From Candidatus Mcinerneyibacteriota bacterium (lineage in GTDB: Bacteria > AUK180 > JAQVHJ01), in NCBI GenBank assembly GCA_030630935.1, contig DAOVMD010000143.1:1-7390 (forward strand): DNA of 7,390 nucleotides. Direction: 5' to 3'. Numbering within the stretch: the stretch's first letter is position 1; every line of letters begins with the position of its first letter. Of this stretch, positions 1-5,647 are shown piece by piece. The notes under the pieces are model-generated. The model was given only the letters and a program-made list of their open reading frames with translations. It did not search any database and was not told the origin of the DNA. The position numbers and the translations under genes were made by a program.

Positions 1-262
1 CCTTAGGCATCTCCAGCTCGAAACAAAAAGCATTGTAATATGTAATGCAAAACAATTCTTACTTATTCATTCTTCAGTCTTCATTCTTCCTTGCAGAGCG
101 AAGAGATGCTTTAAGTTCTCGTTAGTTCTCCCGATACGCTTCGCTATACGGGATCTCCTCTCTCCGTTTGTCGACCTGCTAAAGAATAATTTTTCCTTTT
201 GCTTTTTTTGTTTTTTCTCTGCGTCCTCTGCGGTTAAAGAAAAAGTTTGAGCGAAGCGAGTT
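1..262. repeat. Composite non-coding repeat, copy A (left end may lie outside the window)
   Basis: This is the first of two diverged copies of a long element; the other is at 335-640. The shared order of parts is: a CCTTAGGCATCTCCA start; a short dyad GCATT/AATGC (30-34, 44-48); five 7-base units of TTCTTCA type (56-90); GCAGAGCGAAG (93-103); two 10-base units beginning AGTTCTC (114-123, 124-133); an imperfect palindrome CCCGATA...TATACGGG (130-152); TCGACCTGCT (171-180); a T-rich tract; two 9-base units CTCTGCGTC/CTCTGCGGT (217-234); and AAGTTTGAGCGAAGCGAGTT (243-262). No reading frame of meaningful length is present on either strand. There is no transposase and no clear terminal inverted repeat, so it is not an insertion sequence. 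Copy A begins at base 1, so its true left boundary is unknown. The function is unknown. Confidence 0.85.
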
Positions 263-334
263 AAATTTAATTATTCTTTTTTTGTTTTGTTTTTTCTCTG
301 CGTCCTCTGCGGTGAAAAAAGCATTCATGTGCTT
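263..334. repeat. Linker between the two composite repeats, with an extra nonamer pair
   Basis: This spacer repeats the tail of the composite element a second time: a T-rich run, then CTCTGCGTC (296-304) and CTCTGCGGT (305-313), then an A run. The same T-tract plus nonamer pair is at 217-234, so the T-tract/nonamer module appears to move or duplicate separately from the rest. It has no coding potential. Confidence 0.7.
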
Positions 335-640
335 CCTTAGGCATCTCCAACTCTAAACAAAAAGCATTGTAATATGTAATGCAAAACAATTCTTACTTAT
401 TCATTCTTCACTCTTCATTCTTACTTGCAGAGCGAAGCGATGCTTTAAGTTCTCGTCAGTTCTCTTTAGTTCTCCCGATACGCTTCTCTATCGCTTCACT
501 ATACCCCGATGTAAAATCGGGGTAAACTCAATCTCCTCTCGCCGATCGTCGACCTGCTGAAGAAGTTTTTCTTTTTTTATTTTTTCTCTGCGTCCTCTGC
601 GTCCTCTATGGTTAATAAAAAAGTTTGAGCGAAGTGAGTT
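335..640. repeat. Composite non-coding repeat, copy B
   Basis: This second copy runs parallel to 1-262 with the parts in the same order. The CCTTAGGCATCTCCA start is at 335, the five 7-base units are at 390-424, and the AGTTCTC decamers are at 448-477 with three units instead of two. Next come a hairpin insert (504-522), TCGACCTGCT (549-558), nonamers at 586-612 with three units instead of two, and AAGTTTGAGCGAAGTGAGTT (621-640). It ends eight bases before the stop codon of the CPBP protease gene, so it forms that gene's 3' flank. Compared with copy A it has point changes, an extra unit in two of the internal arrays, and an insertion around 486-530. Confidence 0.85.
504..522. other. Perfect hairpin inside copy B
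   Basis: CCCCGAT (504-510) and ATCGGGG (516-522) are exact complements around a 5-base loop. Copy A has instead a shorter imperfect CCCG...CGGG palindrome at the corresponding place (130-152). There is no following T-run on either strand, so it does not look like an intrinsic terminator. It looks like a small hairpin element inserted into, or expanded within, the repeat. Confidence 0.6.
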
Positions 641-648
641 GTTTGTTT

Positions 649-1311
649 TTATCCTGACTGAGCTTTCAATATAATAGGATATATAATAAATCCAAAAAAA
701 TCAACTAGAAAATGGGTAAGGATATTTGACACGAGATCTCTGCGCCAGATATACTGAACTGAAAAGATTATTCCAGCAAACCCGACAAAGATTAAATGAC
801 CCGGTCCCCAAAAAGGTAAATGTAGAAGAGTAAAAATTATTAAGGGTATGAATATCGCTAATGATTTTGATTTGCTCCAGGCAAGAATTCGTTCCATCGG
901 GTATGACCGGTATAAAATCTCTTCAGTTACCCCGGCTTGAATACAAAATATAATTAGTATCCATGTAGGGAACTTGGTTATCTCTTCCAATCCGGCTTCC
1001 GAACCCATTAATCCAAGGGCTTTAACTAAAAGAGCAATAAGCGGATATGACATGATTATAACAAATGCAGATCCAAAACCAATCGCAAAAGTTTTCCAGG
1101 TTAACTTCTTCAAACCTATTGATGATAAAGGTTTCTTCTCCCAAAATAAAACAACCAGGATAAGAATAACTGTTAATAACCAGAAACCTAACCCATTTAA
1201 AAAATCCGGAAGGTTCTTAATAACATCCCCTACCGCATCTATTAAAAATATACCCGGTAAAATTAACGAAATAATTAAACCTGCTATTGTCGGAATATTC
1301 TTTTTTTTCAT
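649..1311 (-). CDS. CPBP-family (CAAX protease/bacteriocin-processing type) intramembrane metalloprotease
   Basis: This 220-residue, very hydrophobic protein has about six to seven predicted membrane segments. It carries the family's signature motifs: EExxxR as EEILYR (E130, E131, R135), FxxxH as FTLLH (F160, H164), and the last motif as HFLVD (H200, D204). In the Rce1/CPBP family these Glu and His residues form the catalytic site within the membrane. Known members process prenylated proteins or peptides, or act in bacteriocin self-immunity; the substrate here cannot be told. The length is normal for the family and all motifs are intact, so it is probably an active enzyme. The start is ATG with only a weak GAG about ten bases upstream. 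It lies 61 bases after the receptor gene with no promoter I could recognise between them, so translation probably follows read-through from the bioY-receptor transcript. The stop is TAA at 649-651, immediately followed by repeat DNA. Confidence 0.9.
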   Translation of the reverse strand: MKKKNIPTIAGLIISLILPGIFLIDAVGDVIKNLPDFLNGLGFWLLTVILILVVLFWEKKPLSSIGLKKLTWKTFAIGFGSAFVIIMSYPLIALLVKALGLMGSEAGLEEITKFPTWILIIFCIQAGVTEEILYRSYPMERILAWSKSKSLAIFIPLIIFTLLHLPFWGPGHLIFVGFAGIIFSVQYIWRRDLVSNILTHFLVDFFGFIIYPIILKAQSG

Positions 1312-1372
1312 ACCATAATCTCAATTTTAAAAATTTTAATAACTCAATGCATTACTCTTGAATTCGAATCAA

Positions 1373-3559
1373 CTAAAAGATCAAACCCATCCTCAAATAA
1401 ACTCTCCGACCTTCCTGTTCAAACATCTTAACCGGACCAAAGCGGACATTAGGATGATAGAATTGACTGTTAAAAAGATTTTGTATAGTAAGAAAAAAGT
1501 CCAATTTTAATCCTGAGAAATTTATATTATTCCCTGAAAAGGTTAAACTCACCTCGTGAAAAGCATCTATTTCAAAAGGTTTTGATCTACCACCTAAAAT
1601 CAGATCATTATACTGAGCTGTAATTCTATCTACCCAGTGATCTAGAATAGAGATAGTAAAATTGTTTTCCTGAATTCTAATATCATAACTTGCTCCTAAA
1701 TTAATTCTGTATTCAGGAACATTTAAATTACCAACTTTCATCTCCTTGTTAACTACAATACTATCTTCCTTCTCTTTATATTCTACCGTCTCATCTTCTA
1801 TATCAGTAAAACAAAATGTAAGAAACCCAGCAAAGTTTTTATATCTAATTTTTAATACATCTTCAAGGCCTTTTACTGTTAATGAACCCACATTAGAAGC
1901 ACCTCTTTCACCAAATCCAGGGATTAATGCAGTGCGAATTAAATCTTCCGCGTCACTTAGATATACTGTAACTTGATTAAATAGAAATTTACCAAAATAT
2001 TGACTGTAAGAAATTTCATAAGTAGTAATATTTGCCGGTTTAAGGTCAAACTTACCGGTAATTGCCTGTCGCCCCTTCAGTTCAAAGACATTAGGTTCTC
2101 TAAAAGCTTTACCAAAAAGAGCTTTTATATTACTTCTCTCAGTGATTTTATAGACCATCCCACCTCTTGGGGTAATAACTGTTCCATATAAATTTTGCCG
2201 GTCAATTCTGCCACCTATTGTTAAAACAAATTTATCCAGAAAGGTTTGTTGGTCCTGGATAAAAAAAGATTTTTTATTATTATGAAAAGCATCTGCGTCT
2301 TGGTTCTCCTTAATAAAAGGTGGTTGTCTGTCAGGAGAGTAACTGGAAGTAAAACCTACTATATCACATTTTTCATAATCAAGACCGGTAATTAATGTAT
2401 TAGAAATATTGGGGAAATTATAGATTGTTTTAATTTCAACTTTCTTTTTTTTAGAACCACAAGCAGAAAAAGATCGTTGAGTTTCACGCAGTAAGAAAAT
2501 CCGCTTCTCATAATCAGAAAGACCTGCCAGGATAGTTTCAAGTTCATCAAAATTACCAACATAAAGATTTCGTGTAACATCTGTCATAGTTCCGTGACAT
2601 GTTTCGTAGTAATCCTGATACTCAATATTTAATTTTAAATTATTATTAAACAAGTTTCTCTTATACCCAATATAAAATAATCTTAAATCTCTCTGGTCGT
2701 CTGTGTTAGCGTAATCAAACTGAACCATTTCTAAACCAAATCCTTTACGATTTCTGTAATACTCTACTCCTGTATAAACGTTTTTATAGCTTATTTCAAA
2801 GTTAAGTGGAATAGCTGAACTTGGATTAGCATAGACAAATTCGTTACAATTTTTAGGTAGTGGTCTAAAACTATTGGTAGGATTTCCAGGAGAAAAATTC
2901 TGAGTATCAGAGACAAAATCTGTAAAATCTTCTTCATTACTTCTATAAAATCGGAAGGAACCGGATAATCTTCCATCTTCACTGAAATTTTTAGCAAATA
3001 TGAGGTTGAGAGCTTCTGTATTGTATGAACCACCTTCAGATGAAAAGATAATCCCTTCAAATTCAGGATCTCGGCTTTTCGTGATTATGTTAATTACGCC
3101 AACATAGGCATTTGCTCCATAAAGAGCAGAAGCAGGTCCCATAACTACCTCTATTTGCTTTATATTATGAGTAGCAAACTGATTATGTATAAATGTCTCA
3201 GCTGCAATCAGATTCTCCATCTCTCTACCATCAATAAGAAGAAGGGTTTGTGAGAAATTAGAAGAAAATCCCCTCTGACCGCCAAATATTTGAGTATTTG
3301 GATCAGAAATCTCTATCCCTGGAATTGACTTTAACGCATCCTTTAAGTCAAGATAACCATAAATCCTGATATCTTCTTCGGTAATAACATAGATAGTAGC
3401 CGGAGCTTCGGAAATTTTTTGTAAATGTTTAGAAGCAGTTACTACTTGCAGCTCGTTTTCAGTAAAAATGTCAAGTTCTGAAAATGGTTTCTCCTCCTGG
3501 GCAAAAGAAGAAGTAATCATTATACCTACAAATAGTAATGTTAAAATTTGTCTCTTCAT
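1373..3559 (-). CDS. TonB-dependent outer-membrane receptor
   Basis: This 728-residue gated channel takes up scarce large nutrients across the outer membrane, powered by TonB-ExbBD. The Sec signal peptide is residues 1-20, with likely cleavage after SSFA. A TonB-box-like ELQVVTAS is at 36-43. The plug domain is about 48-163 and ends in the classic block around GPASALYGAN (141-150) and GVINIITK (154-161). The 22-strand barrel follows, with GKAFREPNVFEL (483-494), NLFNSQFYHP (694-703) and a C-terminal Phe typical of barrel insertion signals. The length is normal for the family. The reading frame extends four codons upstream to a TTG at 3571, but that lies inside the ribosome binding site. GGAGG followed by five bases selects the ATG at 3557-3559, which also gives a clean signal peptide. 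Five cysteines (238, 321, 367, 398, 583) are many for an outer-membrane barrel and could form loop disulfides. The substrate is unknown; bioY upstream makes biotin a candidate, while iron complexes or cobalamin are the family default. Confidence 0.93.
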   Translation of the reverse strand: MKRQILTLLFVGIMITSSFAQEEKPFSELDIFTENELQVVTASKHLQKISEAPATIYVITEEDIRIYGYLDLKDALKSIPGIEISDPNTQIFGGQRGFSSNFSQTLLLIDGREMENLIAAETFIHNQFATHNIKQIEVVMGPASALYGANAYVGVINIITKSRDPEFEGIIFSSEGGSYNTEALNLIFAKNFSEDGRLSGSFRFYRSNEEDFTDFVSDTQNFSPGNPTNSFRPLPKNCNEFVYANPSSAIPLNFEISYKNVYTGVEYYRNRKGFGLEMVQFDYANTDDQRDLRLFYIGYKRNLFNNNLKLNIEYQDYYETCHGTMTDVTRNLYVGNFDELETILAGLSDYEKRIFLLRETQRSFSACGSKKKKVEIKTIYNFPNISNTLITGLDYEKCDIVGFTSSYSPDRQPPFIKENQDADAFHNNKKSFFIQDQQTFLDKFVLTIGGRIDRQNLYGTVITPRGGMVYKITERSNIKALFGKAFREPNVFELKGRQAITGKFDLKPANITTYEISYSQYFGKFLFNQVTVYLSDAEDLIRTALIPGFGERGASNVGSLTVKGLEDVLKIRYKNFAGFLTFCFTDIEDETVEYKEKEDSIVVNKEMKVGNLNVPEYRINLGASYDIRIQENNFTISILDHWVDRITAQYNDLILGGRSKPFEIDAFHEVSLTFSGNNINFSGLKLDFFLTIQNLFNSQFYHPNVRFGPVKMFEQEGRRVYLRMGLIF

Positions 3560-3576
3560 AGTTTCCTCCAAAAACC

Positions 3577-3593
3577 TTACATCATTTTTGTAA
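3577..3593. promoter_or_regulatory. Short inverted repeat upstream of the receptor gene
   Basis: TTACA (3577-3581) and TGTAA (3589-3593) are complementary around seven bases, just upstream of the receptor's GGAGG site. It could be an operator or a leader hairpin. The arms are only five bases in AT-rich DNA, so chance is a real alternative. A weak -10-like TATAGT lies upstream on the minus strand (3617-3622) but has no matching -35 box. Confidence 0.25.
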
Positions 3594-3646
3594 AAGTTAT
3601 GTTGGTTGTTTCAAATACTATACCAATTTCAATTAAAAACTTTATT

Positions 3647-3702
3647 GTTCTATTCTCTGTTCTCTACTCTCAGCTCTCTGCAGCGAAGCTGTAAGTTCTC
3701 TG
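3647..3702. repeat. Short composite repeat between bioY and the receptor gene
   Basis: Five 7-base units (3647-3681; the last four begin TCTC) are followed by CAGCGAAGCTG (3681-3691), itself a small hairpin, and then TAAGTTCTCTG (3692-3702). The order of 7-base array, GCAG...CGAAG, then TAAGTTCTC is the same as at 56-120 and 390-454, so this is a reduced member of the same family. It ends directly at the bioY stop codon (TTA on the plus strand, 3703-3705) and fills almost half of the bioY-receptor gap. It could affect stability or spacing of a joint mRNA; it does not resemble an intrinsic terminator. Confidence 0.7.
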
Positions 3703-4365
3703 TTAAAGTGATTTTTTTGCCTTCTTAATATCCAAATCACCATTATAAGATTCCTTAGGAGTAATAACTTTCGCTAATGCGGATGCTGCCGCAATTTTGG
3801 TAACATCTCCAATAATGAACGGAATAAAACCAATGCCCAATAATTCCCATAGAGTTGCTCTACTACCTTTTACCAGGTATAGCCATATTCCTAAATGAAA
3901 CAATCCGGCACCATATATCAATATAAAATTTGCAAATATCATTAAACCTAAAATACTAAAAAGGCTCCTTGATTTGATATATCTGTCAGTGAAATAACCA
4001 ATGAAAAGAGCGGCTAAAATAAACCCAATTAAGTAACCACCTGTGGGTCCAAGTATATAACTAAAACCACTATTCATTCCGACGAACCAGGGAATACCAA
4101 TCATACCCAATAATAAATATAATGACATACTAACCCCGCCCCACCATCTGCCAAGAAGGACTCCGGCTAATAATACAGCAAAAGTTTGACCTGTAATAGG
4201 TACGGGAGTCCAGGGAAAATATATTTTAATTTGGGCCAGAAGTCCAGTTACACAAGCCATTGCAAATGCTAAAGCGAGCATGTTTACAAAAGATAAACTG
4301 TATCGCCATTTGAAAAATAAATACCTTTTTCTATAATTCTTATCAAATACTGCTATCTTCTGCAT
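3703..4365 (-). CDS. bioY: Biotin transporter BioY (ECF-type substrate-binding subunit)
   Basis: This integral membrane S-component binds biotin. In the ECF transporter family it works with the shared EcfT/EcfA energising module, and some solitary BioY proteins are reported to transport alone. The 220 residues show about six helices and the family's conserved blocks: TPVPITGQ (53-60), the GVSMSLYLLLGMIGIP stretch (about 77-92), GPTGGYLIGF (106-115) and PFIIGD followed by VTK (182-190). A basic amphipathic stretch of about 22 residues precedes helix 1. Two ATG codons are adjacent. The AAGGAGG site stands only two bases before the first (4366-4368) but five before the second (4363-4365), the same spacing as in the receptor gene, so I take the second. 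No EcfA, EcfT or biotin synthesis gene is in the window. A strong promoter with a leader of about 25 bases lies upstream, too short for a riboswitch. It is the first gene of a likely bioY-receptor-CPBP unit. Confidence 0.95.
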   Translation of the reverse strand: MQKIAVFDKNYRKRYLFFKWRYSLSFVNMLALAFAMACVTGLLAQIKIYFPWTPVPITGQTFAVLLAGVLLGRWWGGVSMSLYLLLGMIGIPWFVGMNSGFSYILGPTGGYLIGFILAALFIGYFTDRYIKSRSLFSILGLMIFANFILIYGAGLFHLGIWLYLVKGSRATLWELLGIGFIPFIIGDVTKIAAASALAKVITPKESYNGDLDIKKAKKSL

Positions 4366-4370
4366 CATTT

Positions 4371-4475: not shown

Positions 4476-4511
4476 ACATTGACAGGGATTGACGGGATGT
4501 ATGGGATGAAA
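4476..4511. repeat. Nonamer GGGAT repeat in an A-rich tract
   Basis: Three 9-base units, GGGATTGAC, GGGATGTAT and GGGATGAAA (4485-4511), are preceded by a degenerate fourth, ACATTGACA. The array lies inside an A/G-rich tract (about 4446-4536). The design of a 9-base tandem array inside a homopolymer-like tract is the same as the CTCTGCGTC arrays at 217-234, 296-313 and 586-612, though the unit sequence differs. The rest of this gap (4537-4662) holds only an odd-centred palindrome TTGGTAACCAA (near 4580) and a GGATCTCCTCT segment also found in the left repeats. I see no gene. Confidence 0.7.
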
Positions 4512-4662
4512 AAAAGAAGAAAAAGAAAAAAAAATTTTAACATGGACTTTTACGAGACTTGTAAAGTAACTTATTTAGATTGGTAACCAACTTTCATAAT
4601 TGGGTTCCTGGTATCTGATATATCCAAAGGGGAAGACTTCTCCTTCGGATCTCCTCTATTCC

Positions 4663-5313
4663 TTAGAAGTGATAACCTACAAATGCTCCAAAATGAAAAC
4701 CTCCACCTTCGATTTCGCCGGTGACCATTCCGGTATATGAACCATTCACTTTCATTTCATTTATTGAGATTTTTGCGGTAGAAACTTTAAGTTCTAAACC
4801 CAGGTTTATATGCTCATATAAAATCCACATTAATCCACCTGAAGCCCAGATTCCCATTTGACTTCCTTCTATGGTAGTTTTAATATCTCCTGCATATGTA
4901 AAGTGGAATATATAATCTAATTCAATAGAGATTTGCGAAAACCCCGCACCGAGGAAATAGGTAAATTTCTCCGGATTCTTCCCGTAGAATTTTAGAATGC
5001 CTATATTAAGCTCCTGCGTACTTCCTTCAAAATCAATTCCGTATAATTCCCCTTTTTTTGAACTCTGTAAATATTCAAGTTGAACAGAAATAGGCCAATT
5101 AGACATTTTGAAATTTAAATTAAATCCCTGCTCATTCTGCGACTCCACCGGTTTCCAAGCCGGGTCAGGCAGGGCTTTACTCCCCAAAAAAACATTTATA
5201 TTTCCCGTGAATTTACTACCTTCTGAACCAAGTACAATAGTAGCACACCCGAAATTAAACATCAACAGAACACTAACAAAAAGAAAGACAAAAACCTTAT
5301 TTCTCTTTTTCAT
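4663..5313 (-). CDS. Small outer-membrane beta-barrel protein, possibly lipid-anchored
   Basis: I do not recognise a specific family. The 216-residue product begins with a basic, hydrophobic signal sequence (1-22) ending NFGC. Cys23 could be lipidated, but Asn at -3 is poor for a lipobox, so ordinary cleavage nearby is equally possible. The mature part is rich in alternating hydrophobic/polar strands with glycine-rich turns (for example 104-132 and 157-177). It ends in HFGAFVGYHF, with the terminal Phe of an outer-membrane barrel. Size and pattern fit an 8-strand OmpA/OmpW-like barrel. AAGGAGG lies eight bases before the ATG, which supports the start. It has its own promoter (5411-5439) and a leader with a hairpin. 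The gene is followed by 294 bases of repeat-bearing DNA before the bioY ATG pair, so it is probably a separate transcript from bioY. The function is unknown. Confidence 0.82.
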   Translation of the reverse strand: MKKRNKVFVFLFVSVLLMFNFGCATIVLGSEGSKFTGNINVFLGSKALPDPAWKPVESQNEQGFNLNFKMSNWPISVQLEYLQSSKKGELYGIDFEGSTQELNIGILKFYGKNPEKFTYFLGAGFSQISIELDYIFHFTYAGDIKTTIEGSQMGIWASGGLMWILYEHINLGLELKVSTAKISINEMKVNGSYTGMVTGEIEGGGFHFGAFVGYHF

Positions 5314-5439: not shown

Positions 5440-5496
5440 GTAGGTACCTACAAAAATTCTGGGACCAGCACTATTCTCAAGCAACACAGTTGTTTT

Positions 5497-5531
5497 AGCA
5501 GAGAGCAGATAGCAGAGAACAGAGAGCAGTT
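5497..5531. repeat. Five-unit heptad repeat (AGCAGAG type)
   Basis: Five 7-base units run AGCAGAG, AGCAGAT, AGCAGAG, AACAGAG and a degenerate AGCAGTT. The unit is purine-rich here, so the array lies opposite in orientation to those at 56-90, 390-424 and 3647-3681, which also have five units. About twenty bases further along come TTTCGCTTCGCTTCAC, the complement of the GCGAAG motif that accompanies the other arrays. It lies in the non-coding gap between the zinc-ribbon and beta-barrel genes. Confidence 0.7.
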
Positions 5532-5576
5532 GTTTTTTAGAAAATAGTTTCGCTTCGCTTCACATTTATTATCTAT

Positions 5577-5591
5577 GGGGGTGAAACCCCC
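5577..5591. terminator. G5/C5 hairpin downstream of the zinc-ribbon gene (possible terminator)
   Basis: GGGGGT (5577-5582) pairs with ACCCCC (5586-5591) around GAA. It lies 57 bases past the stop of the zinc-ribbon gene. On the minus strand it is followed by ATAGATAATAAATG rather than a clear U-run, so it may act only as a weak or factor-assisted terminator or as a 3' end stabiliser. Similar C-rich hairpins are common dispersed elements. Confidence 0.35.
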
Positions 5592-5647
5592 AGCAATCGC
5601 TCTAAACAAATATAAACAATATCAGTAAGTCCATTACATGTCCCAGC

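Follow-up and report, generated by a model that had tools for sequence, protein, structure and literature searches.

The window analysed here is a stretch of 7,390 nucleotides from a Candidatus Mcinerneyibacteriota bacterium, and its first base is also the first base of contig C194 in a draft assembly of 3.16 Mb, 471 contigs and 80% completeness. The first 640 bases contain two turns of a cyclic order of short modules (Table 1), and the genome has dozens of intergenic sites, this contig start among them, that carry the same family of composite repeats. A second mosaic cluster further downstream is a mate of this family; its parts, drawn from the same genome-wide set, are CTCAAGCAAC.., a CAGAGAG array, TTTCGCTTCGCTTCACA, GGGGGTGAAACCCCC and E/S modules. 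The neighbouring genes on the minus strand (649-1311, 1373-3571 and 3703-4368) encode a CAAX-type (Rce1-like) protease, a TonB-dependent receptor and a BioY biotin transporter component, and no link between the genes in 649-4368 and the repeats was found. Short arrays are also present at 4478-4577 and 3646-3681 (GGGATTGACGGGATG, a purine-rich stretch; TCTCTGC heptads), and resemble other array modules of the genome.

Table 1. Repeat modules of the window, with positions and strand.
Feature	Positions	Strand
Final part of module E, truncated at the contig end	1-27	+
Module D, dyad GCATTG..AATGC	28-51	+
Module H, array of a 7-bp unit (ATTCTTC)	52-90	+
Module K, TTGCAGAGCGAAGAGATGCT, which closes the D-H-K unit on the right	91-110	+
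Module T, 10-bp array AGTTCTCGTT	113-130	+
Module P, hairpin CCCGATA..TATACGG	130-152	+
Module p (p1, p2), ..GTCGACCTGCTAAAGAA	153-186	+
T-tract and module C (CTCTGCGTC array)	187-239	+
Module G, AAAAAGTTTGAGCGAAGCGAGTT	240-262	+
Further T-tract and C array (CTCTGCGTC) between the two turns, adjoining the next E module	268-320	+
Second-turn module E, GCATTC..CTCTAAACAAA	321-361	+
Second-turn D-H-K unit	362-444	+
Second-turn T array, about three 10-bp units	447-473	+
Second-turn module P with 11-bp tandem duplication	474-502	+
F-type 23-bp hairpin insertion (ACCCCGAT..ATCGGGGTAA) inside the second-turn P-p	503-525	+
Second-turn module p	526-564	+
Second-turn T-tract, C array and G module	565-640	+
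Second mosaic cluster: modules J, j, B, b, then E/S	5476-5642	+

Aligned as whole copies, positions 1-262 and 335-640 are 76% identical over about 308 columns (E=1.8e-66), and bases 1-130 match bases 335-464 at 95% identity without gaps, in agreement with an earlier note on this DNA that had described two diverged copies with their parts in a common order. The borders given in that note (1-262 and 335-640) hold in part. Two copies are indeed present, but the module borders place the start of the second at GCATTC, at about 321 rather than 335; the first copy is truncated by the contig end, at which the window begins, and 264-320 is occupied by a T-tract and an array rather than by inert spacer. 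Similarly, the CCCGATA palindrome that the copies were said to share is found in both, but in an altered version in the second, where module P carries an 11-bp tandem duplication (CGCTTCTCTAT/CGCTTCACTAT) together with the 23-bp hairpin insertion; these two changes explain most of the length gap between the copies. The description of the element as non-coding was borne out, since the coding capacity of both copies is unconvincing (the sole frame has 82 codons and is open at the contig end), and a search of the repeat region against Rfam families gave no matches.

The earlier note had also reasoned that a simple local tandem duplication would suffice if these two copies were the only ones, and that random match boundaries would argue against a defined element. 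Neither was observed. A search with the 262-bp copy (E<=1e-3) returned 67 places in the host genome; they lie on both strands, and most match only part of the copy. The ends of 203 alignments stack at a small number of points that match the borders of the parts. The best remote copy, on contig C240, is 88% identical over 193 bp and is thereby closer than the adjacent copy as a whole. Among 60 relatives searched, short pieces only were recovered, chiefly of the heptad array and of the CTCTGCGTC array.

Approximately 20 modules, each of about 15-40 bp, were named. Their consensus strings were written from the repeat sequences themselves, and were then counted in ∼497 kb of the genome's own contigs, a sample made up of random contigs and of contigs picked for carrying matches; because the sample was partly chosen in this way, the module densities are inflated. 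The modules occurred 4-56 times each, vs 0-1 times in second-order Markov sequence of equal length, and these counts should be read as a description of the family rather than as a blind discovery, since the sequences that supplied the strings also served for the count. When the random contigs were taken alone (255 kb usable), 14 of 40 contained a main module, and a very rough genome-wide extrapolation gives 10-100 copies per main module. Moreover, 36 of the 60 main-module matches on the random contigs were located less than 500 bp from a contig end, compared to ∼14% of the bases. Searches with nhmmer were underpowered for modules shorter than 30 bp. A degenerate exact pattern for module p found no match among 84,980 species genomes or in IMG/VR, and neither did one for module K in IMG/VR, with records of the own genome possibly excluded. 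The motif GCGAAGCGA was counted 231 times in the own genome, 52 times in the genome of a sister genus (G001, same family) and 11-27 times in others, but the reversed sequence used for comparison overlaps with this motif and is no real control. We do not claim a common rule for array endings (..CTGTTAA, ..GTGGTTAA), for which observed vs Markov counts were 34/13 and 17/1, but also 23/17 and 23/22.

The arrangement of the modules is strongly constrained. In the ∼497 kb, where gene positions are simple ORF calls made with no trained gene finder, 434 of 438 matches to the 14 main modules fell outside ORFs, and four inside an ORF of more than 400 nt. Clusters, defined as at least two main modules, were strand-uniform in 57 of 61 cases, with 5 of 403 modules on the minority strand. 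Adjacent pairs followed the order E1-E2-D-H-K-T-P-p1-p2 in the forward direction 163 times and backward twice, although the forward count is raised by E1-E2, P-p1 and p1-p2, which are halves of single longer modules; the informative pairs (D-H, H-K, K-T, T-P and E2-D) gave 95 forward and 2 backward. The order is cyclic because E1 is often the next module after p2. At some junctions there are alternative partners: either D-H-K or S can come after E, the module before D is E, N, j or b, and K in some places directly abuts other DNA. What the earlier note took for a single element with two defined ends, copied as a block, is rather a chain whose modules are separately present, absent or swapped. 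With many dispersed copies, subsequences in particular arrangements and an intergenic, non-coding location, these chains have the properties of composite repeats.

Replication or transcription as the source of this polarity was considered and rejected. The polarity did not correlate with the coding-strand majority of the contig (27/63, p=0.31), and no correlation with GC skew was found. Neither was any orientation bias of the flanking genes significant: the right end of the clusters faced the 3′ end of a gene in 48 cases vs the 5′ end in 35 (p=0.19), and the corresponding numbers for the left end were 34 and 30 (p=0.71).

Alignment of 24 copies of the D-H(n)-K core unit (∼83 bp) revealed a nearly invariant right end, TTGCAGAGCGAAGCGATGC, and a heptad array H that varies by whole 7-bp units. 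The unit has terminal inverted repeats of 5 bp (columns 3-7 with 85-89), and a second inverted repeat surrounds the array (columns 20-23 with 71-74). Among 21 copies of P-p the 11-bp tandem duplication is present in some, and the 23-bp hairpin insertion is that of the second copy in the window.

For the RpoA of the host, the closest entry in the named collection was at 77% (MAG ‘bacterium isolate STE_202’), with the rest at 40-46%, which places the host in an uncultured lineage. The analysis covered one further genome of the same family, G001, from another genus. G001 matches the E and S consensus, and has a repeat family of its own (GCATTC..TTAAGCATCA..GCTCTAAACATCCGCAACATTATTTATAATGC, a heptad array, ATGCGAAGCGTTT and CTCTGCG arrays) that was found in 47 places with a query composed from G001 sequences; this type of family was absent from five other genomes of the class. 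The E-D-H-K layout is common to both genera, with different words. In one pair of orthologous genes, L088 in the own genome and L214 in G001, a similar promoter stretch has been kept. A mosaic at ∼4820-5170 lies just upstream of this stretch in L088, whereas L214 has no module at the corresponding promoter stretch and a different gene next to it. In a second orthologous pair, L059/L185, one member carries GTTCAA-type arrays and the other two tandem turns of E-D-H-K. The two pairs show gain, loss or replacement between the genera, and not single insertion events. A further module, Q (GAGATTGCCACGTC..CCTCGCAATG), seen in G001 (L171), also has matches in three unrelated genomes (G005, G011 and G026) and is a widespread intergenic repeat crossing phyla.

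We propose, with a probability of about 0.6 and on the basis of one genome of the species, that these clusters are genome-wide, BOX-like intergenic composite repeats whose blocks are copied between sites in a non-autonomous manner. In the clusters, small inverted repeats take turns with arrays whose units measure 7-11 bp; they follow one another head to tail on the same strand, and the cycle runs from an array through E, D-H-K or S, a T array, P-p and a T-tract with another array back to E. According to our proposal, blocks of modules would spread by copying between intergenic sites, arrays would lengthen and shorten through replication slippage, entire turns would be gained or lost via recombination between direct repeats, and chains would be linked via homology at the ends that modules share. 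The clusters would persist because intergenic insertion is tolerated. The copying step should be interpreted with caution and is only a guess, since it is not obvious how nested insertion alone would give a single polarity and a fixed order. The reading in the earlier note is retained insofar as the repeats are multi-copy and non-coding and keep their order and polarity; mobility as such we infer from the dispersed copies and from the differing orthologous regions of the two genera.

An unlikely alternative is that the modules are miniature elements of the REP/RAYT type, moved in single-stranded form by the Y1 transposases (IS200-like or RAYT-like) of the genome. Three Y1_Tnp genes are present. 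In addition, module N, a 66-bp sequence, reads GTAG and a GC-rich hairpin on its other strand, like GTAG-tagged REPs (PMC3733652), and its copies at several sites (L158-L162, L004 and L006) are 97-100% identical. Given this identity module N is far younger than its neighbouring modules; it is possibly a REP-type element that was active in the mosaics not long ago (cf. PMC3733652), and is the most promising module in which to observe a recent move. However, none of 16 modules was found in the stretches analysed around the three Y1 genes, and of the GTAG or CGTC tags at a hairpin foot only the GTAG of N was seen by eye, with no GTAG tag visible in D-H-K, T and P-p. Moreover, REPs of many families are placed in opposite orientation (PMC3733652), whereas the chains described here have one polarity. 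A separate observation concerns L113 (contig C247), where the 3′ part of a Y1 transposase ORF at 480-1210 enters repeated CAAAGATATCGCTC.. units, with similar CTCCGTAGGAGCGATATCTTTGTAG repeats upstream; this is possibly a decayed IS200-type gene with a palindromic repeat family of its own. Inspection by eye suggests that a group II intron has its 3′ end at ∼1-390 of the same locus (domain V-like GAGCCCGTTGCGGGAAAACCGCACGGCGGGTTC), although a search of the draft returned no reverse transcriptase.

It is also conceivable, if rather doubtful, that a dedicated process of directional joining or extension is at work, that is, an unfamiliar copying mechanism that adds modules in one polarity, so that the grammar stays fixed across genera and interchangeable words are replaced. 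A reverse transcriptase as the source of polarity was rejected, as no PF00078 gene was found in the 80%-complete draft.

We find it quite improbable that the modules are functional RNA or DNA elements under selection, such as terminators, 3′ UTR stabilisers or protein-binding arrays. Such a role would agree with the layout common to the sister genus and with modules K and p2, which are almost invariant among copies, and the region 321-640 folds modestly better than shuffled sequences (z -2.8 and -2.0). On the other hand, no compensatory changes were seen in the pairs of the D dyad or the P hairpin, nor in the pairs predicted by RNAalifold itself, and no terminator-like site was found. The negative Rfam search, the flanking genes without significant orientation bias and the differing content of orthologous regions also count against selected function. 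A structured non-coding RNA was rejected on the absence of both an Rfam match and compensatory base changes.

Finally, a simple local tandem duplication at this locus alone fits two adjacent, direct copies and has a parallel in a 100% identical 112-bp direct duplication at another contig end (L058), but with 67 places in the genome and a closer copy on C240 it is excluded as the whole explanation and is very unlikely indeed. Local duplication may be the origin of the second turn at this site.

If the reading as dispersed, BOX-like composite repeats is true, it extends composite bacterial repeats to an uncultured lineage, with an unusually strict grammar of order and polarity that holds for ∼20 modules in two genera. 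Comparison of strains could then put to the test the long-standing question of how mosaics of the BOX or BIME type are built. On the practical side, the clusters are located where the draft assembly breaks.

Several known repeat systems can be compared with this family. With regard to MITEs, D-H-K has inverted ends of 5 bp, and no target-site duplication was seen in the module junctions read, a non-systematic look. Elhai et al. (2008) reportedly described very small dispersed repeats in Nostoc that combine with heptad arrays and are nested in each other; to our knowledge, many modules arranged in a fixed cycle with a single polarity have not been described for them. The NIMEs of Neisseria, elements of 70-200 bp (named in PMC3049150), are likewise intergenic mosaics built from short subsequences, but by description they differ from the present chains, which span several hundred bp in a fixed cyclic order. 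BIMEs, REPs and REPINs share with our family the intergenic mosaic of short palindromes and other motifs (PMC2817692, PMC3116915), and module N is akin to a GTAG-tagged REP (PMC3733652). BIMEs, however, contain REPs in alternating orientation (PMC2817692), an arrangement that is not seen in clusters of near-uniform polarity, and in contrast to REP/RAYT systems (REPtrons) the modules flank none of the three Y1 genes within the stretches analysed. The BOX elements of Streptococcus pneumoniae consist of boxA, a variable boxB array and boxC, and the BOX-type repeats of S. suis of seven subsequences in particular permutations (PMC3049150). Fixed end modules around a variable array, boxA-boxB(n)-boxC, correspond to D-H(n)-K in architecture, with no sequence relation expected, and both are dispersed, tens to several hundred bp long and without a transposase inside. 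Our family differs from BOX in its ∼20 modules, the several kinds of arrays per chain, the cyclic order with repeated turns and the uniform polarity. In conclusion, it is a new, large and polarity-constrained family of composite repeats, nearest to BOX in architecture.
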